Below are positions 3,888 through 63,109 of a DNA stretch of 64,000 bases, one piece after another (position 1 is the first letter of the stretch; the number at the start of each line of letters is the position of its first letter). A program made the position numbers and the translations under genes. Origin of the DNA: Clostridia bacterium (GTDB lineage: Bacteria; Bacillota; Clostridia; Oscillospirales; Acutalibacteraceae); assembly GCA_017474045.1 (NCBI GenBank), contig JAFUHX010000088.1, positions 1 to 64,000 of the forward strand, given 5' to 3'. A model generated the notes under the pieces. The model was not told the origin of the DNA and searched no databases. It worked only from the letters and a program-made list of their open reading frames with translations.

Positions 3888-4655
3888 TCATTGATCGGTG
3901 TTTTTCCATTTTATGACGCGCTTTTCAAGAACTGAAATTAAAAGCATTAAAAGAAGACTTATTATTGAAATAAAAATAATTACCGCAAACATTTTATCAA
4001 AAGCATAGGCTTTTTTAACTCTGGTCATATAAACCCCCAGACCTTCAAATCCGCCTAACCATTCGGCAATAACTCCGCCCACTACCGCATAAGAAGCAGA
4101 CACCTTCAAGCCTGAAAAGAACGAAGGCAAAGCCGACGGAAGCTTAATATGGCGAAATACCGTAAGTTTTGAGCCTCCCATGCTTCTTATCAGATCAATC
4201 GCATCTTTATCAGCACTTTTATAGCCGTCAAGAAGAGAAACTGTTACGGGAAAAAAGGTTGTTATTACCACAAGGGTTATTTTTGGCGCCATTGAAAAGC
4301 CCATCCACAAAACAAGAAGAGGGGCGATTGCAATGGTGGGAACTGTTTGAGTAACGATAAGAACAGGATAAAAAGCCTTATATAAAAAAGGGAATCTGTC
4401 CATAACGGTTGCAATAACAAAAGCGGCAAGAATTCCGATTAAAAGACCATATATTGCCTCCTGAAGAGTTACGGCGGCATGCTTCATCAAAATTGAAAAA
4501 TCTGAAACAAAAGCCTTGATTACGCTGAGGGGAGACGGCAACATATAGGCAGCAATGAGCTCACCCTCGCTAACGAAAAGCCAGAGAAGGCAGATTACTG
4601 CAACGGAAATCAGCGGCGCCGATTTACTCGTGATGTTTTGAAACTTTTTTATCAA
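3888..4655 (-). CDS. thiX: Thiamine-precursor ABC transporter permease (ThiX-like)
   Basis: This 255-residue membrane permease of the BPD_transp_1 family has about six hydrophobic segments and the cytoplasmic coupling loop (near residues 160-185, containing the DLIRSMGG stretch) that contacts the ATPase. It belongs to the same subfamily as SsuC and ThiX. The start appears to be TTG at 4655, which overlaps the end of the preceding thiamine-binding gene by 32 bases, with AAGGCGGTG about 12 bases upstream. That spacing is loose, so a slightly later start is possible. The 32-base overlap suggests translational coupling within the thiamine operon. Confidence 0.87.
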   Translation of the reverse strand: MIKKFQNITSKSAPLISVAVICLLWLFVSEGELIAAYMLPSPLSVIKAFVSDFSILMKHAAVTLQEAIYGLLIGILAAFVIATVMDRFPFLYKAFYPVLIVTQTVPTIAIAPLLVLWMGFSMAPKITLVVITTFFPVTVSLLDGYKSADKDAIDLIRSMGGSKLTVFRHIKLPSALPSFFSGLKVSASYAVVGGVIAEWLGGFEGLGVYMTRVKKAYAFDKMFAVIIFISIISLLLMLLISVLEKRVIKWKNTDQ

Positions 4656-4923
4656 TTGTCAAAACACCGCCTTCGGGTTTATAAACTATTTTTACATAAG
4701 ATGAAACTGAAGGGCAACCCGCTTTAATTGCCACCTTCTGACAGTTTGAAACAATTTCCATCAGTTGATCGTAGCTTTCTCCCTCAATGGTTGTTTCAAA
4801 AGGTCCCACATAGCAGTTAAGACCTGTGCTTTTAATATAGGCAATTACCTCATCAACAATTCTGATAAGCTCTTCTTCGCTGTTTACTTCGGGAAGAACC
4901 TGAATAGCAACACTAGCTGTCAT
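4624..4923 (-). CDS. Thiamine-binding protein, MTH1187/YkoF family
   Basis: This 99-residue protein belongs to the small ferredoxin-fold Thiamine_BP family (MTH1187, DUF77), whose members bind thiamine or its pyrimidine; VGPFETTIEG near residue 40 is a family hallmark. It has no signal peptide and should be cytosolic. The start is ATG 4923 with AAAGGAGTG upstream; an in-frame ATG at 5064 lies inside the riboswitch terminator hairpin and is not a real start. It is the first gene after the TPP riboswitch and overlaps thiX. Its role is probably thiamine or precursor binding linked to transport. Confidence 0.88.
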   Translation of the reverse strand: MTASVAIQVLPEVNSEEELIRIVDEVIAYIKSTGLNCYVGPFETTIEGESYDQLMEIVSNCQKVAIKAGCPSVSSYVKIVYKPEGGVLTIDKKVSKHHE

Positions 4924-5034
4924 AAAAACACTCCTTTGATATTTGCAGAAGGAAAAGCACGAAATCACAAGGCAAAAGCAAAAAGCTCCGTTGCCTTTCG
5001 AAAGCTTTCTGCAGTGAAAGTGCTCTTCTTTCTG

Positions 5035-5068
5035 AAAAAATAAACGCCACGGATAAACATCCATGGCG
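5035..5068 (-). terminator. Riboswitch-controlled intrinsic terminator
   Basis: On the minus strand CGCCATGGAT (5059-5068) pairs with ATCCGTGGCG (5045-5054), one wobble, four-base loop, followed by TTTATTTTTT (5035-5044). It directly follows the TPP aptamer and precedes the first gene, so it is the expected expression platform: TPP binding should favour termination. Confidence 0.88.
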
Positions 5069-5079
5069 GAAAAAGCTTT

Positions 5080-5172
5080 TAAACTTCCTACGTCGGCATT
5101 ATCCGAATCAGGTTAAGGGTTAAAGACGAGCAAGTCTTAATCTCAGCCGAATTTCATCAGCACCCCTGTTTA
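5080..5172 (-). promoter_or_regulatory. TPP riboswitch (THI element)
   Basis: The minus strand contains the conserved THI-box elements in order: a P1 stem TAAAC/GTTTA (5168-5172 and 5080-5084), GGGGTGC, GCTGAGA, ACCTGAT and GGATAATGCCGACGTAGGAA. It lies between a promoter and an intrinsic terminator and controls the four downstream thiamine-transport genes. High thiamine pyrophosphate should switch the operon off. Confidence 0.97.
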
Positions 5173-5189
5173 TCTTGTGGCGTAATTTC

Positions 5190-12261: not shown

Positions 12262-12293
12262 GAAAGGATAAAGGCGTTCGCCTTGATTTTAGC
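12262..12293 (+). promoter_or_regulatory. Hairpin between ribosome binding site and start codon
   Basis: GAAAGG (12262-12267) is followed by a stem AAGGC (12271-12275)/GCCTT (12280-12284) with a four-base loop, then nine bases and the ATG at 12294. Linear spacing from GAAAGG is 26 bases; without the hairpin it is 12. No closer Shine-Dalgarno sequence with normal spacing is visible. Confidence 0.55.
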
Positions 12294-12989
12294 ATGAAAA
12301 CATATAAGCTTCATTTGATTCGCCACGGCCTTACAAAAGGCAACCTTGACGGCCTCTATATCGGTCATACAGATATGCCCCTTTGCCCTCAGGGAATTGA
12401 ACAAATTAAAAAGATGAAAAAGGACTACACCTACCCTGCGGCTGACTATGTTTTTTCAAGTCCGCTTAAAAGGTGTGTTTCAACAGCCAAATTGATTTAT
12501 CCCAATATTAAGCCGATTATTATTGAAGACCTTATTGAATATGACTTCGGTCAGTTTGAAGGACGCTCAGCCGCTGAGCTTCATGAAAAGCAGGCTCTTT
12601 TTGACCAATGGCTCGCCGGAAAGCCCGACGTTAAACCGCCCTTTGGAGAAAGCAACGAGGAATTTGCCAGAAGAGTTTGCAACTGCTTTGTTAAAATTGT
12701 TGACGGAATTATCAAGGCTGACGCAGACAACACCTGCATTGTTACTCACGGCGGTGTTATCATGACTATTATGGCAAACTGTGCCCTTCCTGAAGCAATG
12801 ACTCATGAATGGCTCACACCCTCGGGTTGCGGCTACACGCTGAGAATTACCCCATCTCTCTGGCTTTCGGGAAGAAAGCTTGAAGCGGTTGAAGAAATTC
12901 CCATTGTTCCCTCTGAGCCGAGAAACTATTATGACGGCTGGGATTATTATCCCGATGACGATGATTTCGACATCAGCGAATATATTTAA
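12294..12989 (+). CDS. Histidine phosphatase family protein (phosphoglycerate mutase-like)
   Basis: This 231-residue protein has the family signature LIRHGLTKGN near residue 7, in which the histidine is phosphorylated, SSPLKRCVSTA near 56, and the second catalytic histidine in TCIVTHGGV near 150. Such enzymes remove phosphate from small metabolites (examples: 2,3-bisphosphoglycerate-independent side branches, alpha-ribazole phosphate, fructose bisphosphate); the substrate is not predictable here. The C-terminus ends in an acidic, aromatic tail (YYPDDDDFDISEY) that is not part of the domain. It is the first gene of the plus-strand operon that continues with ymdB 32 bases downstream. Confidence 0.88.
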   Translation: MKTYKLHLIRHGLTKGNLDGLYIGHTDMPLCPQGIEQIKKMKKDYTYPAADYVFSSPLKRCVSTAKLIYPNIKPIIIEDLIEYDFGQFEGRSAAELHEKQALFDQWLAGKPDVKPPFGESNEEFARRVCNCFVKIVDGIIKADADNTCIVTHGGVIMTIMANCALPEAMTHEWLTPSGCGYTLRITPSLWLSGRKLEAVEEIPIVPSEPRNYYDGWDYYPDDDDFDISEYI

Positions 12990-13021
12990 GAAAGGCAGAG
13001 CTTTCCGCTCTGAACAAAAAG
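12990..13021 (+). promoter_or_regulatory. Hairpin between ribosome binding site and ymdB start
   Basis: GAAAGG (12990-12995) immediately follows the upstream stop codon. The stem CAGAGC (12996-13001)/GCTCTG (13007-13012) with loop TTTCC comes next, then nine bases and ATG 13022. Linear spacing is 26 bases, nine without the hairpin. This is the same arrangement as at 12262-12293. Confidence 0.6.
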
Positions 13022-13795
13022 ATGAATATTCTTGTTTTAGGAGATGTTGTTTCTCAAAGCGGTTGCGACCTTATCAGAAAAAAGCTTCCTGCTTTGAAAA
13101 AGCTTAAAAATATTGATTTCACCATTGCCAACGCCGAAAATTCAGCAAAAGGCAACGGTGTTACTCCGCTTTCAGCAGAACATCTTTTCACAAGCGGAGT
13201 TGATTTTTTAACCACCGGAAACCACGCTTTCAGAAGAAGCGAAATCTATGACTTTTTAGACAGCAGAGACGACATTATCAGACCTTATAATTTTCCCGCA
13301 AGCACACCGGGAAAGGGAGTCAGCGTTGTGGACACGGGGAAATATCGTCTGGCGATTATTAACCTTATGGGAACAATGTATATGGAAAATCTTGAAAATC
13401 CGTTTTTTGCCGCAGACAAAGCTCTCAGAGAGACTGACGGTTGCAAAATTATTCTTGTTGATTTTCACGCTGAGGCAACCTCTGAAAAAAAAGCTATGGG
13501 GCATTATCTTGACTCAAAGGTTTCGGCTGTTTTCGGAACACATACCCACGTTCAGACGGCTGACGAATGTATTTTATCCGGCGGAACGGGCTATATCACC
13601 GACCTTGGAATGTGTGGCCCCGGCGACAGCGTTCTGGGCGTTAAAAAAGAAATTGTTATTAAAAAATTCACCAGCTTAATGCCTCAGCGCTTTGAAACGG
13701 CAGACCGGAATGAATGTTTTATAAACGGCTGCATTTTTTCTGTTGACGAAAAAAGCGGAAAATGCATTGATGTTGAAAGAATTAATTTATTTTAG
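13022..13795 (+). CDS. ymdB: YmdB-family metallophosphoesterase
   Basis: This 257-residue protein matches the YmdB/DR1281 family of dinuclear-metal phosphodiesterases, which in Bacillus subtilis hydrolyses 2',3'-cyclic nucleotides and affects biofilm and late gene expression. Visible metal-binding motifs are LGDVVSQSG near residue 5, ANAENS near 39, TTGNHAF near 65, and HAEATSEK and GTHTHVQTAD in the second half. The length is typical. It starts at the ATG preceded by an unusual SD-hairpin arrangement. In many Firmicutes ymdB sits beside rny; here it sits in an operon with a phosphatase and an orphan lipoprotein. Confidence 0.93.
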   Translation: MNILVLGDVVSQSGCDLIRKKLPALKKLKNIDFTIANAENSAKGNGVTPLSAEHLFTSGVDFLTTGNHAFRRSEIYDFLDSRDDIIRPYNFPASTPGKGVSVVDTGKYRLAIINLMGTMYMENLENPFFAADKALRETDGCKIILVDFHAEATSEKKAMGHYLDSKVSAVFGTHTHVQTADECILSGGTGYITDLGMCGPGDSVLGVKKEIVIKKFTSLMPQRFETADRNECFINGCIFSVDEKSGKCIDVERINLF

Positions 13796-15378: not shown

Positions 15379-17421
15379 TTGAACGCTGATTATTCAACAG
15401 ACATTAAATTTATTAAAGGCGTTGGAGAAGTTCGCGCCAAACTTTTTAAAAAGCTTGAAATCGAAACGCTTTATGACCTTGTTCATTTCTATCCCCGTTC
15501 ATATCTTGATTTCACTCAATGTACTTCTGTTTCAAAATTACAGGTTGGCCAGACAGCCTGCGTCAGAGCAATTCTTGGCTGTGACGTTTCAGAACACATT
15601 ATCAGAAAAAACATGGTCATTTATAAAACCATGGCAGCAGACGAAACGGGTATTTTTTATATTACTATTTTCAACAACAAATATCTCGCTCAGGCGCTGA
15701 AAACCGGTGAAGAATATTTTTTCATGGGAAAGGTTATTCTGGAAAACGGTCATCTTGCCATGAGTTCACCTCTTATTGAGCCCTATAGCGAGCTCACCGC
15801 TATGAAGCCGGTTTATTCTCAAACGGCTTCGCTTCGTTCAAAAACCATTGAAAAGGTTGTTTCCAATGGACTTCTTGCCCTCAGAGAAAGCAGAGAAGAA
15901 GACCCGATTCCCGACTCTGTCAGAAAAAAATATAAGCTTTGCCACGAAAGCTACGCTCTCAATGCAATTCATTTTCCAAAGAGTCAACAGGATATTGAAA
16001 TTGCAAAAAATCGACTGATTTTTGAAGAGCTTTTTTTGTTGCAATGCGGTTTATTGAGTATGAGACAAGGGAAAAGCGAAAAAACAGAAATGCTTTTAGA
16101 AAAAGATTTTACAAAAAATTTTGTCGCCTCCCTTCCCTTCACTCTGACCTCAGCTCAACAAAGAACAATTGATGAATGTGTTTCAGACATGAAAAAATGT
16201 GTTCCAATGAACAGACTTGTTCAAGGTGACGTTGGTTCAGGTAAAACAGTTGTTGCTGCAGCGCTGATTCATTCGATGGTAAAAAACGGCTATCAATGCG
16301 CCATGATGGCACCCACAGAGCTTCTTGCCCGTCAGCATTGCGAAACGCTTTCAAAACTTTTGGGAAACGAAATTAAAACCGTTCTTCTCACCGGTGCCGT
16401 TACAGCCTCTGTTAAAAATAAAATCAAAAATCTTCTTAAAAGCGGCGAAGCTGATGTTGTTGTGGGAACCCACGCCCTTATTACCGAAGACGTTGAGTTT
16501 TCTTCCTTAGGGCTTGTTGTTACTGACGAACAGCACAGATTCGGAGTCAGACAAAGAGGAAGTCTTTCTGAAAAAGGAAAATCACCCCACGTTCTTGTTA
16601 TGTCGGCAACACCGATTCCCAGAACACTTTCTCTGATTATCTATGGTGATCTTGATATTTCTGTTATTGATGAGCTTCCAAGAGGACGACAAAAAATCAG
16701 TACTTATGCCGTTGATTCTTCATATAAGCCAAGAATATATTCCTTTATTAAAAAGCATCTTGACAAAGGTCTTCAGGCATATATTGTCTGCCCTCTTGTT
16801 GAAGAGGGAGAAAACGAGTTAACAGCCGCCGCGAAATATGCCGAAGAGCTTTCTGAAAATGAATTTTCAGGCTATAATGTCGGGCTGCTTCACGGAAAAA
16901 TGAAACCGAAAGACAAAAAACAGGTAATGGAAGATTTTGTTTCCGGAAAAATTTCGCTTCTTGTTTCAACAACGGTTATTGAGGTTGGAATTGACGTTCC
17001 AAACGCTGTTTTAATGGTGATTGAAAACGCCGATATGTTCGGTCTCTCTCAGCTTCATCAGCTGAGAGGAAGAGTCGGAAGAGGAACCGAAAAATCCTAT
17101 TGCGTTTTAATAAGCGACACAAAAGGTGAAACCGCAAAGAAAAGAATGGATATCATGTGCAAAAACAACGACGGCTTTCTTATTGCTGACGAAGACCTTC
17201 GTTTAAGAGGTCCCGGTGACTTTTTCGGTTCAAAGCAGCATGGACTTCCCAATCTGAGAATTGCAGACCTGATTTCAGACATGGTTACTTTAAAAAACAC
17301 TCAGCAGGCAGCCAAAGAAATTTTCAAAAAAGATTCTTCTCTTTCTCTTAGCGAAAACAAGGGATTGCGAAAGGCAGTTAAAAGACTTTTTGACAAAACT
17401 GCTTCGACTATACTCAATTAA
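15379..17421 (+). CDS. recG: ATP-dependent DNA helicase RecG
   Basis: This 680-residue helicase reverses stalled replication forks and branch-migrates Holliday junctions. An N-terminal wedge/OB domain is followed by a superfamily 2 motor: Walker A GDVGSGKTVVAAA near residue 285, TDEQHRFGVRQR (the DEQH box) near 382, SATPIPRTL near 407, and the motifs VIEVGIDVPNA and QLRGRVGRG that are diagnostic for RecG. The length is typical. The start is TTG 15379 with AAGGAGGTG eight bases upstream; no ATG lies nearby. Confidence 0.98.
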   Translation: MNADYSTDIKFIKGVGEVRAKLFKKLEIETLYDLVHFYPRSYLDFTQCTSVSKLQVGQTACVRAILGCDVSEHIIRKNMVIYKTMAADETGIFYITIFNNKYLAQALKTGEEYFFMGKVILENGHLAMSSPLIEPYSELTAMKPVYSQTASLRSKTIEKVVSNGLLALRESREEDPIPDSVRKKYKLCHESYALNAIHFPKSQQDIEIAKNRLIFEELFLLQCGLLSMRQGKSEKTEMLLEKDFTKNFVASLPFTLTSAQQRTIDECVSDMKKCVPMNRLVQGDVGSGKTVVAAALIHSMVKNGYQCAMMAPTELLARQHCETLSKLLGNEIKTVLLTGAVTASVKNKIKNLLKSGEADVVVGTHALITEDVEFSSLGLVVTDEQHRFGVRQRGSLSEKGKSPHVLVMSATPIPRTLSLIIYGDLDISVIDELPRGRQKISTYAVDSSYKPRIYSFIKKHLDKGLQAYIVCPLVEEGENELTAAAKYAEELSENEFSGYNVGLLHGKMKPKDKKQVMEDFVSGKISLLVSTTVIEVGIDVPNAVLMVIENADMFGLSQLHQLRGRVGRGTEKSYCVLISDTKGETAKKRMDIMCKNNDGFLIADEDLRLRGPGDFFGSKQHGLPNLRIADLISDMVTLKNTQQAAKEIFKKDSSLSLSENKGLRKAVKRLFDKTASTILN

Positions 17422-28201: not shown

Positions 28202-29533
28202 TTATTGATTAAAATCGCCTAAGAGGGCGCTGAAATCCATATCTTCAAATTCTTTGAGGCTTTCGCTGATTGTAATATTAAGAACATCACTTTCAAAAGT
28301 ATCAAGGCGAAGCTCAGTTTCTTCTCCGCTGTTCATATTTTTAAGCTTAACAATTCCGCTTTCAAGCTCACTATCACCAAGAACAACAGTGAATTTTGCG
28401 CCGATTTTGTTGGCATATTTCATCTGAGCCTTAACGCTTCTTCCAACAACATCAAACTCTGTGTGCATTCCCTCTTTTCTCAAAGCGTGAGCAATAGCAG
28501 CTGCTTTTTCAAGAGCATTTTCACCCATTGAAGCAATATAAAGCTCACATTGCGCAGGAGACGGGAAAGCAAGACCCTGATTTTCCATCAGAAGCATTAA
28601 TCTCTCGATACCCATTCCGAAGCCGAGAGCCGCTGTTTTCGGTCCGCCTACCTCTTCAACGAGTCCGTCATAACGACCTCCGCCGCAGACAGTACCCTGA
28701 GAGCCTATATCGGTTGAAACAAACTCAAAAACAGTTTTTGAATAGTAATCAAGACCTCTGACAATGGTGGGATTAACCTTGAAATCAATTCCCATTGCCT
28801 TGAGATATTTCTGAACTGAAGCAAAATGCGTTTTGCAGTCATCGCAAAGAAACTCAGTAACCTTTGGCGCATCTTTTGCAATTTCAGAGCAAACCGGACT
28901 CTTGCAATCAAGTATTCTCATGGGGTTGCGGCTTAGCCTGTCGTTGCAGGTTGCGCAAAGCTCACCGGTATGAGAATCGAAATAAGCCTTCAGGGCTTTA
29001 TGATATTCTTTTCGGCAAGTCGGACAGCCGATAGAGTTGATTTCAAGCTGAATATTCTGAACTCCAAGGAAATCAAAGATATTCTGAGCAACACCAATAA
29101 CCTCGGCGTCCGCTGCAGGTGAAGCCGCACCAAGACACTCAATTCCGAACTGATGAAATTCACGAAGTCTTCCTGCTTGTGGCTTTTCATAGCGATAGCA
29201 TGAAGTGAGATAACACATTTTTTGAGGCATGGGTTCATTATAAAGGCCATGCTCAAGATAAGAACGAACAACACCGGCTGTTCCTTCGGGACGAAGAGTT
29301 ATTGAACGGTCGCCCTTATCGTTGAAGGTGTACATTTCTTTCTGAACAACATCAGTCGTGTCGCCAACGCCTCTTTGGAAAAGCTCTGTATGTTCAAAAA
29401 CAGGAGTTCTGATTTCACGAAAACCGAAATTCTCGGCAATTTCAAGGCAAGTGTGCTCAACAAATTGCCTTTTGTGGCTTTCTGCAGGAAGAACATCAAG
29501 AGTTCCTTTTATTGATTTTGTTATTAACGCCAT
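28202..29533 (-). CDS. hisS: Histidyl-tRNA synthetase
   Basis: This 443-residue class IIa synthetase charges tRNA-His. Motif 1 lies near FGFREIRTPVFEH, motif 2 shows CYRYEKPQAGRLREFHQFG near residue 110, the HisA motif GLDYYSKTVFE near 260 and motif 3 ALGFGMGIERL near 312. The C-terminal anticodon-binding domain is present. A cysteine-rich segment between 170 and 240 (CPTCRKEYH, CATCNDRLSRNPMRILDCK, CDDCKTHF) is typical of Firmicute HisRS. The start is ATG 29533 with GGAGGTG upstream; an upstream in-frame extension would run into the T-box terminator. It is the first gene of hisS-aspS. Confidence 0.98.
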   Translation of the reverse strand: MALITKSIKGTLDVLPAESHKRQFVEHTCLEIAENFGFREIRTPVFEHTELFQRGVGDTTDVVQKEMYTFNDKGDRSITLRPEGTAGVVRSYLEHGLYNEPMPQKMCYLTSCYRYEKPQAGRLREFHQFGIECLGAASPAADAEVIGVAQNIFDFLGVQNIQLEINSIGCPTCRKEYHKALKAYFDSHTGELCATCNDRLSRNPMRILDCKSPVCSEIAKDAPKVTEFLCDDCKTHFASVQKYLKAMGIDFKVNPTIVRGLDYYSKTVFEFVSTDIGSQGTVCGGGRYDGLVEEVGGPKTAALGFGMGIERLMLLMENQGLAFPSPAQCELYIASMGENALEKAAAIAHALRKEGMHTEFDVVGRSVKAQMKYANKIGAKFTVVLGDSELESGIVKLKNMNSGEETELRLDTFESDVLNITISESLKEFEDMDFSALLGDFNQ

Positions 29534-29571
29534 AAGGCACCTCCGAAAATAATAGTTTGATTTAATAAAAC

Positions 29572-29791
29572 AAAAAAACGCCGCCATCCCCAAAAAAAAC
29601 AAAGGGATGAAGCGACGCTCCACGGTACCACCCTAATTGAGCGCATAAGCGCCCCACTTTAAGCTTTAACGCAGCTATACGGGCTTTCGCCGGCTCATGA
29701 ATGTCTTGGGGCTGATTGCTTGGCAGAACACTCTCAGCAAAATGTGTTCCTCTCTGGGCGGCTCACAGCCTTACTCTTTTCAGTCTTAGCC
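29572..29791 (-). promoter_or_regulatory. T-box riboswitch controlling hisS-aspS
   Basis: The minus strand shows stem I with the GAGTAAG kink-turn strand and AGAGAG. The specifier strand (29701-29708) precedes TCATGAGCC in the same position as the GGC specifier of the B. subtilis glyQS T-box. The T-box AGGGTGGTACCG is at 29623-29634. The antiterminator pairs AGGG and GTGGAGCG with CGCTTCAT and CCCT. The competing terminator pairs 29604-29617 with 29579-29591, followed by seven T at 29572-29578. Uncharged tRNA should promote read-through. In canonical register the specifier reads GAC (Asp); shifted two bases it reads CAT (His). No clear promoter separates it from mgsA. Confidence 0.95.
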
Positions 29792-29808
29792 TTTAGTAAT
29801 ATTGAATT

Positions 29809-33707: not shown

Positions 33708-34565
33708 TTAATCTGCCAATTCTTCAACGCCCTGACCTTTAAAAGACGTTATTACAAAAACATCTTCTATTTTATCAACTTCAGCGCCGGGCTCAATAAC
33801 AGCATAGCTTGAAATGTCGTATTCACTCTGAAGAACCTGAGAAACAGTTCCGATAATCAGACCTTTCGGATAAATTCCGCCAATTCCCGATGTGAGAACA
33901 ATTCCACCGGGAGAAACAGAGGTTGTTCGCTGAAGCCCGGAAAGAACACATCTTCCGCTTTCAGAATATTCAACAGTTGTTGTTACATAGGCTGTTTCTC
34001 TTGTTTTGCTTTCAATGGCGCTTATGTTAACATCGGGATTGAGAACAGAAGCGACAACACTATATGACTTATTAACCTTTCTGACAACGCCCACAAGATA
34101 GTTGCCGTAAATTACGGGGTCGTTTACACTCACACCGTCAGAAGAGCCTTTATCAATTATTAACGAGGAAAAAATATTTGCCGAATCAGTTCCGATTATA
34201 TTGGCATTTTCCAAAACAAAATCCTGATTCTTTTCTTTTATTTCAAGCATTCTTTCATAGGAAGTAATTTTTCTTTTCATTTCGTTATAATCGGCAAGCT
34301 GCTTTTCATAGTCGGCTATCTGTTCTTTTAGCTTATCATTTTCAATTTTCAAGGATCCTGCTGAAGCAAAAGAAGAATCAAACCAGCTGAATTTTTCTGC
34401 GATTTTTCCGGCAAGCTGTTGAAGCGGTGCAAACACTGTTCCCACAACGCTTGACGCCGGCGAAACAGAATTATCGGTTGCAACGGCAATAACCGTTCCC
34501 ATAAGAACGGCGCACAAAACAAACACCAATATTTTAAACTGAACACTACTGAAAAATCTTCGCAT
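33708..34565 (-). CDS. mreC: Rod shape-determining protein MreC
   Basis: This 285-residue bitopic membrane protein organises the elongation complex outside the membrane. A membrane helix near residues 10-28 is followed by a coiled coil (about 70-115, rich in Lys, Glu and Leu) and two beta domains; GIGGIYPKGLIIGTV near 225 is a family hallmark. The length is typical. ATG 34565 is preceded by GGGTGA six bases upstream and by GAAAGG further away, with a short hairpin between (34576-34589). Confidence 0.95.
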   Translation of the reverse strand: MRRFFSSVQFKILVFVLCAVLMGTVIAVATDNSVSPASSVVGTVFAPLQQLAGKIAEKFSWFDSSFASAGSLKIENDKLKEQIADYEKQLADYNEMKRKITSYERMLEIKEKNQDFVLENANIIGTDSANIFSSLIIDKGSSDGVSVNDPVIYGNYLVGVVRKVNKSYSVVASVLNPDVNISAIESKTRETAYVTTTVEYSESGRCVLSGLQRTTSVSPGGIVLTSGIGGIYPKGLIIGTVSQVLQSEYDISSYAVIEPGAEVDKIEDVFVITSFKGQGVEELAD

Positions 34566-34597
34566 TGATTTTCACCCGAGAAAATTCGGTTCCTTTC
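34566..34597 (-). promoter_or_regulatory. Possible hairpin between GAAAGG and the mreC start
   Basis: On the minus strand GAAAGG (34592-34597) is followed by CCGA (34586-34589)/TCGG (34576-34579), four base pairs with a six-base loop, then ten bases and ATG. Spacing without the hairpin is 12 bases. This case is weaker than the others because GGGTGA close to the ATG could act as a normal ribosome binding site. Confidence 0.35.
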
Positions 34598-37949: not shown

Positions 37950-38747
37950 TTAAATTTTTTTGTCTTTTTCAAAAGATGCCTTGACCGCTTTGGCGGTGGC
38001 AGCTTCAAAGCCCTCTTGCTGAAGAGTCAAAACTCCTTCTATTGTTGTTCCGCCGGGTGAACAGACCTTGTCTATTAACTGCCAGGGGTGCTCGCTGCTT
38101 TCAAGAATCATTTTTGCGCTGCCCAGAACTGTCTGAGCCGCAACTTTTAAAGCAACATCTTTTGTAAGACCATTTTCAACGCCTGCTCTGGCAAGAGAAT
38201 CAATAAACATATAGGAAAATGCAGGGCCGCAACCACCGATTGCGCTATAAATTGAAAAAAGACTTTCATCAATACATACGACCTTGCCAAAACTGCAACA
38301 AAGTCCGGAAACAAAAGCCTTATCGGAGTCGGTTGCATTTTCATTTGAACAACAGGCGCAGATTGCCTCAAGAGCAACAGCGTTAATGTTAGGCATTATT
38401 CTTATTATTCTCGCATCATCATAAGAAAGGCAAGACTTAATAAAATCGAGCGTTTTCCCTGCTGCAATGGAAATTATCAGCGGGGATTTTTCTTTTAGAA
38501 CATCTTTTATTTCATCAATTACTGAAGGCAAAACATTGGGCTTTATTGCAAAAACAATTCTTTCGCATTTTTCGGCAATTTCAAAACCGCCAGAGCACAC
38601 AACAACGCCAAACTCATTTGAAAGAGCCTTGGTTTTTTCGCTGTCTTTATCAAAAACAGCAATTTCGTTTCCTTTCAGAAAGCCTGAAGAAACAACTCCT
38701 TTAATTATTGCCGACGCCATATTGCCGGCTCCGATAAATCCAAGCAT
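37950..38747 (-). CDS. proC: Pyrroline-5-carboxylate reductase
   Basis: This 265-residue enzyme makes proline from pyrroline-5-carboxylate with NAD(P)H. The Rossmann motif GFIGAGNMASAI lies at residues 3-14, and the C-terminal signature VCSPGGTTIEGVLTL near 235 is diagnostic. The start is given as ATG 38747, which yields the usual ProC N-terminus. An in-frame TTG at 38771 would add eight residues, but it lies in the loop of a hairpin between GAAAGG and the ATG. The gene abuts the convergent M14 peptidase gene with no space for a terminator. Confidence 0.95.
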   Translation of the reverse strand: MLGFIGAGNMASAIIKGVVSSGFLKGNEIAVFDKDSEKTKALSNEFGVVVCSGGFEIAEKCERIVFAIKPNVLPSVIDEIKDVLKEKSPLIISIAAGKTLDFIKSCLSYDDARIIRIMPNINAVALEAICACCSNENATDSDKAFVSGLCCSFGKVVCIDESLFSIYSAIGGCGPAFSYMFIDSLARAGVENGLTKDVALKVAAQTVLGSAKMILESSEHPWQLIDKVCSPGGTTIEGVLTLQQEGFEAATAKAVKASFEKDKKI

Positions 38748-38791
38748 AGAACAGTCGCGGTGTATTTTCAACTATTTCACCGCATCCTTTC
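38748..38791 (-). promoter_or_regulatory. Hairpin between ribosome binding site and proC start
   Basis: On the minus strand GAAAGG (38786-38791) and two bases are followed by a perfect six-base stem GCGGTG (38778-38783)/CACCGC (38757-38762) with a 15-base loop, then nine bases and ATG 38747. Linear distance is 38 bases; without the hairpin it is 11. The GGTGA inside the stem could alternatively serve a TTG start at 38771. Confidence 0.6.
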
Positions 38792-62132: not shown

Positions 62133-63068
62133 TTATTCTTCGTCTGCGTGAGTTACCTCAGTGTTTTCAAAAAGTGCTTTTGCAAAAACAGCGGGCTTGA
62201 AGGGCTGAAGGTCATCAATTTTTTCGCCAACACCAATAAATTTAACAGGAAGCTTAAGTTCGTTTTTGATTGTTAAAACAACGCCACCTCTTGCCGTTCC
62301 GTCAAGCTTTGTTAAAACGATACCTGTAAGCTCGGCAACACCCATAAATTCCTTGGCCTGATTAACGGCATTCTGACCCGTTGTGGCATCAAGAACAAGA
62401 AGAATTTCACGGTCAGCATAGGGAAGCTTTTTTTCAACAACGCGATAGATTTTTACAAGCTCGTCCATAAGACCCTTTTTGTTATGAAGTCTTCCCGCGG
62501 TGTCGCAAATTATTATGTCGCAGTCGCGGTTTATTCCGGCGTCAATTGTGTCAAAAACAACAGCGGCAGGGTCAGCACCCTCTTTATGCTTAATCATTTC
62601 AACTCCGGCTCGCTCTGCCCAGACCTCAAGCTGTTCGATGGCAGCAGCTCTGAAAGTATCAGCTGCACCGAGAATAACCTTTTTTCCCTGCGCCTTATAC
62701 ATAGCTGCCATTTTTCCGATTGTTGTAGTTTTTCCTGCGCCGTTGACTCCGATAACAAGAATTACTGAAGGAACGGTTATAAGACCCATATCTTCGCCGC
62801 CGTCAATCATTTCGGCAACAATATCGGAAATTATCATTTTCGCGTGCTTCGGATTTCTGACGTCGCCCTTGCTGACCCTGTCTCTGAGAGCATCAACAAT
62901 ATCGGTTGCGGTCTGCATTCCGACGTCGCCCATAATAAGAGCTTCTTCAAGATCGTCATAAAGGTCATCGGTTATTTCTTCATAAGCGCCGAGAATGTCT
63001 TCAATGTTTTTGGTCATTCCCTCGCGGGTTTTTCTTAATCCGAAACCAAATTTTTTAAAAATACCCAT
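62133..63068 (-). CDS. ftsY: Signal recognition particle receptor FtsY
   Basis: This 311-residue SRP GTPase docks ribosome-SRP complexes at the membrane. The NG domain begins at the first residues (MGIFKKFGFGLRKTREGM), with G1 GVNGAGKTTTIGK near residue 111, AADTFRAAAIEQL near 137, G3 DTAGRL near 193 and G4 TKLDG near 253. It lacks the long acidic A domain of E. coli FtsY, as in most Gram-positives. The start is ATG 63068, the canonical N-terminus; an in-frame TTG at 63092 would add eight residues but lies in a hairpin between GAAAGG and the ATG. Confidence 0.96.
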   Translation of the reverse strand: MGIFKKFGFGLRKTREGMTKNIEDILGAYEEITDDLYDDLEEALIMGDVGMQTATDIVDALRDRVSKGDVRNPKHAKMIISDIVAEMIDGGEDMGLITVPSVILVIGVNGAGKTTTIGKMAAMYKAQGKKVILGAADTFRAAAIEQLEVWAERAGVEMIKHKEGADPAAVVFDTIDAGINRDCDIIICDTAGRLHNKKGLMDELVKIYRVVEKKLPYADREILLVLDATTGQNAVNQAKEFMGVAELTGIVLTKLDGTARGGVVLTIKNELKLPVKFIGVGEKIDDLQPFKPAVFAKALFENTEVTHADEE

Positions 63069-63109
63069 TTTTTCGGTAATACAAGGTTTCAAGCCTTGCT
63101 TTTCCTTTC
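63069..63109 (-). promoter_or_regulatory. Hairpin between ribosome binding site and ftsY start
   Basis: On the minus strand GAAAGG (63104-63109) and five bases precede a stem CAAGG (63094-63098)/CCTTG (63082-63086) with a seven-base loop, then 13 bases and ATG 63068. Linear spacing is 35 bases, 18 without the hairpin. The TTG within the loop could be the start instead. Confidence 0.45.

Follow-up and report, generated by a model that had tools for sequence, protein, structure and literature searches.

The window, which is the whole 64,000-nucleotide stretch of DNA analyzed here, belongs to a draft genome of 2.5 Mb in 105 contigs (G000) and contains two consecutive forward-strand genes in whose leaders a predicted hairpin lies between a Shine-Dalgarno (SD)-like motif and the start codon. 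A sequence-only reading of the same DNA had pointed out this arrangement at five genes of the window, whose features are the following:

12262-12267, forward strand: SD-like motif GAAAGG of the histidine-phosphatase-family gene (sequence read directly)
12271-12284, forward strand: hairpin AAGGC-GTTC-GCCTT, 5 bp, within the SD-start spacer (fold and dinucleotide shuffle)
12294-12989, forward strand: histidine phosphatase/alpha-ribazole phosphatase-like gene, ATG at 12294 (TIGR03162 below cut-off; orthologue starts)
12990-12995, forward strand: SD-like motif GAAAGG (AGAAAGG from 12989), directly 3' of the stop of the preceding gene
12996-13012, forward strand: hairpin CAGAGC-TTTCC-GCTCTG, 6 bp, within the SD-start spacer (fold and dinucleotide shuffle)
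13022-13795, forward strand: ymdB-like metallophosphoesterase gene, ATG at 13022 (TIGR00282 over cut-off; start matches most orthologues)
34576-34589, reverse strand: mreC leader with a weak 4-bp hairpin, CCGA/TCGG (by eye); GAAAGG at 34592-34597, ATG at 34565
38757-38783, reverse strand: proC leader hairpin, 6 pairs, loop of 15; GAAAGG at 38786-38791, ATG at 38747
63081-63099, reverse strand: ftsY leader hairpin, 6 pairs including one G-U; GAAAGG at 63104-63109, ATG at 63068

Leaders with a predicted hairpin in the spacer

The spacer between GAAAGG and ATG measures 26 bases at both 12294 and 13022. It is predicted to fold into five pairs with the loop GTTC (-6.2 kcal/mol) at the former and into six pairs with the loop TTTCC (-8.9 kcal/mol) at the latter, leaving 12 and 9 bases outside the hairpin, as the sequence-only reading had described. 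With 26 bases against 8-14 at ordinary GAAAGG genes, the SD lies too far away for normal use; with the hairpin looped out, the remaining 12 and 9 bases would give a functional, near-normal distance. Dinucleotide shuffles of the single sites gave modest values (p 0.05 for 12294 and p 0.005 for 13022). The best NCBIfam model for the product of the first gene is that of alpha-ribazole phosphatase (TIGR03162), with a score below its cut-off, and the product of the second exceeds the NCBIfam cut-off for the TIGR00282 metallophosphoesterase, which is YmdB-like. By homology, the start residue is the same in the orthologues of the 12294 gene and in most of those of ymdB. A mobile palindromic repeat (REP/MITE-like) was discarded as the origin of the 13022 leader, whose GAAAGG plus hairpin is found at a single location of the draft genome at up to three mismatches. 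An Rfam 15 scan of the window gave no match at the gathering score at these leader sites. Elsewhere on the reverse strand of the window, a TPP riboswitch aptamer (5068-5177; Rfam) lies directly upstream of an open reading frame at 4624-5064, and a T-box leader (29600-29796; 93.2 bits, gathering score 93) lies at and upstream of the start of the open reading frame at 28202-29623.

Among the other three examples, the identities of proC and ftsY were confirmed by family models, and the name mreC is assumed from the sequence-only reading. The proC and ftsY hairpins are present as that reading had them, save that ftsY has six pairs with a G-U where five had been counted; nonetheless, both genes have an alternative start. 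Since an in-frame TTG follows GAAAGG at normal spacing in each (TTG 38771 after 14 bases in proC, TTG 63092 after 11 bases in ftsY), translation could simply begin at TTG, and both genes are excluded by the filter described below. The weak mreC example was recovered with its four pairs; the gene caller picked 34517 as the start of this gene, which is outside the counted set of 18. In the sister species G033, proC has an SD-hairpin-ATG arrangement of its own, with a different stem and a further in-frame ATG just behind the hairpin; the design was not found at ftsY among the other 29 leaders of the genus examined. A second FtsY coding region of the same assembly (G000:C95:19-951) is 100% identical over 311 residues to that of the window (62136-63068, reverse strand), possibly as a contig overlap or a strain variant.

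Frequency in the draft genome and distribution in the genus

The sample of G000 comprised 1,027,138 bases and 693 genes called by codon score, 682 of them with sufficient upstream sequence; start positions rest on coding score or homology. The design was counted, in what we will refer to as its filtered form, where a near SD had fewer than 5 bases, a far SD had at least 6, no in-frame start codon stood at normal distance, and a fitting hairpin was present, that is, one of -3.5 kcal/mol or lower that brings the aligned spacing to between -1 and 13. Eighteen of the 682 genes show it, and five more have a far SD with no fitting hairpin; 24 genes were set aside for an in-frame start codon at normal distance, and in 216 of the 682 genes the upstream sequence contains no near SD of 5 bases and no far SD of 6. 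By extrapolation from 1.03 of 2.5 Mb, about 44 such leaders would be expected per genome.

The layout is genuine and commoner than chance. GAAAGG is present in 18 of the 23 far-SD genes, and in 16 of these 18 a hairpin leaves a functional distance, as it does at 12294 and 13022. The comparison with shuffled leaders that had been proposed in the sequence-only reading came out in favor of the layout: fitting hairpins numbered 5.1 on average, and never more than 10, in 500 shuffles of the spacers, against the 16 observed, which also exceed what is found at GAAAGG-ATG pairs other than called starts, where 107 of 356 (30%) fit a lenient criterion (Fisher p 7e-7). A GAAAGG-type SD occurs in 16 of the 18 hairpin genes versus 58 of the 274 ordinary genes whose SD has at least 6 bases (p 7.5e-9). 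The hairpin starts 0-5 bases after the SD in 17 of the 18 genes, and in 14 its end is 8-13 bases short of the start codon. The spacing of GAAAGG is itself discontinuous, with peaks at 8-14 bases and from 25 on, and a single case at 15-24, in the first 724,899 bases (444 genes); among 680 unfiltered G000 starts there are 55 cases at 8-14, two at 15-24 and 27 at 25-45, and 21 of these 27 have a fitting hairpin. In dinucleotide shuffles of individual leaders, p 0.05 is attained by 7 of 36 far-SD cases, in the set as it stood before the filtering of alternative starts, and for at least three of the 18 hairpin genes (L003+10300, L035-10676 and L314) the predicted fold is a poor fit. A position-only scan for hairpins gave 12 in the bin of 5-9 bases, compared with 4.8, with an equal or larger excess further upstream.

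Besides the genes at 12294 and 13022, family models name obgE, dnaJ, dtd, polA, pyk and an MTA/SAH nucleosidase gene among the hairpin genes of G000, the remainder being known from their N-terminal sequence alone. No common function, loop or stem was seen among the 18 genes. Orthologues of dtd, obgE, polA and pyk have the same start residue. At up to two substitutions, 11 of the 18 hairpins have one copy in the 1.03-Mb sample and two have two copies; the other five, of 12-15 bases, have 5-110 copies (15 places for that of 12294), as is possible by chance for short words. The hairpins were also considered as intrinsic terminators, and this was rejected: a T-rich tail (at least 5 T in 8 bases) follows three of the 18, the hairpin of 12294 being followed by 4 T and that of 13022 by none.

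A tree of four proteins was built for 33 of the 34 genomes of the genus, leaving out G023, whose aligned sequence was insufficient and which was placed outside the clade for the counts because its YmdB identity is low (54%). In this tree G000 forms a clade with G033, G021, G020 and G031 (support 0.998); the nearest named YmdB relatives are metagenome-assembled genomes, several of them from animal gut. At the sampled loci, one and the same detector found the filtered design in 30 of 1,196 genes of the clade, a figure somewhat raised by the inclusion of loci fetched for hairpin genes, versus none of 481 in the rest of the genus (p 5e-5). Larger stretches, mostly chosen regardless of hairpins (a few contigs were picked for ftsY, proC or ymdB) and with edge genes excluded, gave 5 of 168 genes in G031, 3 of 156 in G033, 2 of 93 in G021 and 3 of 63 in G020, some of these matches looking poor; outside the clade, they gave 0 of 129 in G003 and 0 of 92 in G023. 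Of 254 genes at 77 loci that come for the most part from other genera (at least one, L045, seemingly belongs to this genus), three show the filtered design, one or more of these three being doubtful. The filtered design thus marks the five-species clade in the sampled loci, though not absolutely, as recN of two species outside it (G025 and G008) also shows it. The contrast is confined to leaders with no near SD or other start, a far GAAAGG being as frequent outside the clade as within it when no filter is applied: among 222 genes of G003 and G023, 18 have GAAAGG at 8-14 bases, two at 15-24 and eight at 25-45, four of these eight with fitting hairpins, and a far GAAAGG is present in 14 of 467 genes, nine of them with fitting hairpins, in the remaining four species of the clade. 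The other members of the clade use AAGGAGG-type SDs too.

Leader structure in orthologous genes

At starts fixed by homology, a set which excludes orthologues with no clear start or too little upstream sequence, the design is present in 20 of 58 clade leaders, a figure inflated because the genes were picked from clade matches, versus 2 of 144 non-clade leaders, 110 of which have a near SD. For the ten genes found in G000, and with G000 itself excluded, the figures under slightly looser limits are 4 of 39 in the clade and 0 of 105 outside it (p 0.005). The names recN, hdrB, dprA, yetF, purM and rnc are tentative assignments from N-terminal sequence.

In recN, an SD-like motif, a hairpin and ATG can be recognized by eye in all five clade members, two of them weakly; the script accepts G000, G020 and G031, and rejects G033 (three to four pairs, with an SD-like run of 5 bases at the ATG) and G021 (imperfect SD). 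There are four different stems in the clade, those of G031 and G020 being nearly alike. Of the 25 recN leaders from outside the clade, a near SD is present in 17, no clear SD in six and the hairpin design in two, and the hairpin therefore looks derived in the clade. The ymdB leaders of G020 and G031 also have a hairpin, with a stem other than that of G000; between these two species, its 11 pairs comprise seven that are the same, two with single changes, two with double changes and none broken. The three closest YmdB relatives (G021, G033 and G019) have no hairpin in this leader. In hdrB the script detects small hairpins in G033, G021 and G000, and larger, perhaps branched, structures are visible by eye in G031 and G020, although the stretch available for G020 ends short of the start codon; a near SD is present in all 14 non-clade hdrB leaders tested. 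This range of sizes is possibly a natural record of a growing hairpin. The dtd hairpin has 13 pairs in G000 and three in G020 and G031, and none is present in G033, G021 and G012. Hairpins are predicted in dprA and yetF of both sister species G031 and G020, and for these two genes, as for recN, conservation rests on separately predicted folds, the sequences not being pairwise alignable.

Other hairpins are confined to single genomes: that of purM to G033, and, among the leaders examined, those of 12294, ftsY, obgE, polA, pyk, dnaJ and the nucleosidase gene to G000. The expectation of stems conserved in close relatives, raised in the sequence-only reading, fails for 12294 and ftsY, and at 13022 it is the hairpin that recurs, in G020 and G031, and not the stem. 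Structure is nevertheless kept through sequence change at several genes, which suggests that pairing rather than sequence is retained in orthologous leaders. In the dnaJ leader of G012 (L336), a long hairpin of about 12 pairs by eye is situated just upstream, not downstream, of an SD-like GAGAGGT. The rnc gene was dropped as an example because it is ambiguous, G031 rnc having an in-frame ATG after the SD. By eye, the G020 rnc leader (L299, about 15920-15975) has a short open reading frame at normal SD distance whose end overlaps the rnc start codon; in G031, the corresponding ATG shares the reading frame of rnc, and a hairpin can form in this stretch.

Probable looped-out ribosome binding sites

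We consider it probable, with some confidence, that the hairpin leaders are accommodated, or looped-out, ribosome binding sites; for the "accommodated" or split site of phage T4, a paper by Malys and Nivinskas is reportedly the reference. The SD, mostly AGAAAGG or GAAAGG in G000, would pair with the 3' tail of the 16S rRNA, to which it is presumably complementary (no 16S match was obtained in 33 of the 34 genus genomes, with a partial one in G030, and the 16S is absent from the G000 assembly). The spacer would fold into the hairpin and the 30S subunit would read across its base, so that the working distance would be near the ordinary one. In the five-species clade, such hairpins would have appeared downstream of ordinary SDs in numerous unrelated genes and, once a hairpin existed, its pairing would be required for the distance; selection on the spacing would then let stems vary in sequence while staying paired. 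A few percent of the sampled genes in a small gut-bacterial group, represented here by draft genomes, seem to carry a hairpin between SD and start, probably folded away so that the working distance is normal. The sequence-only reading is supported in part. Its proposal that the ribosome tolerates or uses a looped-out stem is supported by the excess over controls, the concentration of the filtered class in the clade and the hairpins kept despite sequence change. Two of its five examples (proC and ftsY) have alternative starts, and of the regulatory effect that it had thought possible no sign was found.

Three other readings were weighed. If the start codons were wrong, translation would start in frame at the usual distance from GAAAGG and the "hairpin" would be coding sequence, as the TTG codons of ftsY and proC, the in-frame ATGs of G031 rnc and G033 proC and the 24 genes set aside might indicate. 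We regard this as very unlikely: the 18 counted genes of G000 were filtered to lack such codons, the start residue is shared with orthologues in 12294, dtd, obgE, polA, pyk and most of ymdB, and fitting hairpins in 16 of 18 genes are not predicted by it. It is very improbable that the far GAAAGG is unused, the genes being read with no SD and the hairpins being random: the fit in 16 of 18 stands against 30% in non-start pairs and against the shuffles, the filtered class is concentrated in the clade, and pairing is kept through sequence change, even though 216 of 682 genes have no near or far SD, 107 of 356 non-start pairs pass the lenient criterion, these leaders have many hairpins, and a far GAAAGG, counted unfiltered, is equally frequent outside the clade.

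The position beside the SD is a frequent site of regulator action, and the hairpins could be regulatory or processing elements (a protein operator, thermosensor, attenuator or RNase site) that happen to sit there. With dnaJ among the hairpin genes and a T-rich tail, as defined above, behind the stem in three of the 18, this reading has something in its favor; we nonetheless judge it very improbable, given unrelated genes with no common stem or loop, few repeated copies and no Rfam family at the window sites.

Beyond looped-out sites as such, we put forward tentatively, as a possibility with less than even chances, that the clade shifted to an initiation mode in which spacers are routinely folded. 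Its 30S platform or its frequent AGAAAGG-type SD would accept hairpins of about 3-15 pairs, whose near-neutral gain at a few percent of genes would be locked by spacing; translational complexity would increase by a ratchet, of which recN, with structure kept but little sequence, would be an example. The idea that the clade has lost an S1-like protein was rejected, as matches to the rpsA model are found in 34 of 34 genomes, all below the cut-off, with no clade difference. A general excess of hairpins in the intergenic DNA of the clade was likewise ruled out, since their densities in co-directional gaps (2.32 per kb in G000, 2.48 in G031, 1.24 in G021, 2.37 in G033 and 1.34 in G020) are no higher than in G003 (2.81) and G023 (2.95).

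If the looped-out reading is true, a bacterial clade using such sites at a few percent of its genes would offer a natural experiment on the way in which the distance from SD to start is measured by the 30S subunit; leader structure would be selected with little sequence conservation, and caution would be due over the mis-annotation of SDs and starts in such genomes. A literature search of titles and the beginnings of abstracts, which covered few subscription journals and is weak evidence of absence, returned no report of the design as a genome-wide bacterial feature. The looped-out ribosome binding site is reviewed for two T4 genes, 38 and 25, in which a hairpin shortens the SD-AUG distance from 22 to 5 and from 27 to 11 nt and destabilizing mutations lower initiation; the arrangement of gene 25 occurs in a single phage group and has a lineage-restricted origin (PMC3014915). 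The likeness lies in a long SD-AUG distance shortened by an intervening hairpin; unlike the T4 genes, those described here are bacterial and chromosomal, belong mostly to one clade, have fast-changing stems and are known from sequence alone. At structured standby sites, the ribosomal platform binds hairpin leaders and accommodation is traded against unfolding (PMC3936740); their hairpins are upstream of the SD, whereas here they stand between SD and start codon. The TAACTGA repeats of Beggiatoaceae (PMC4679880) resemble the present leaders as a lineage-specific addition near the starts of many unrelated genes, but consist of one repeated heptamer, mostly with no SD, in contrast to the varied hairpins found here behind an SD.
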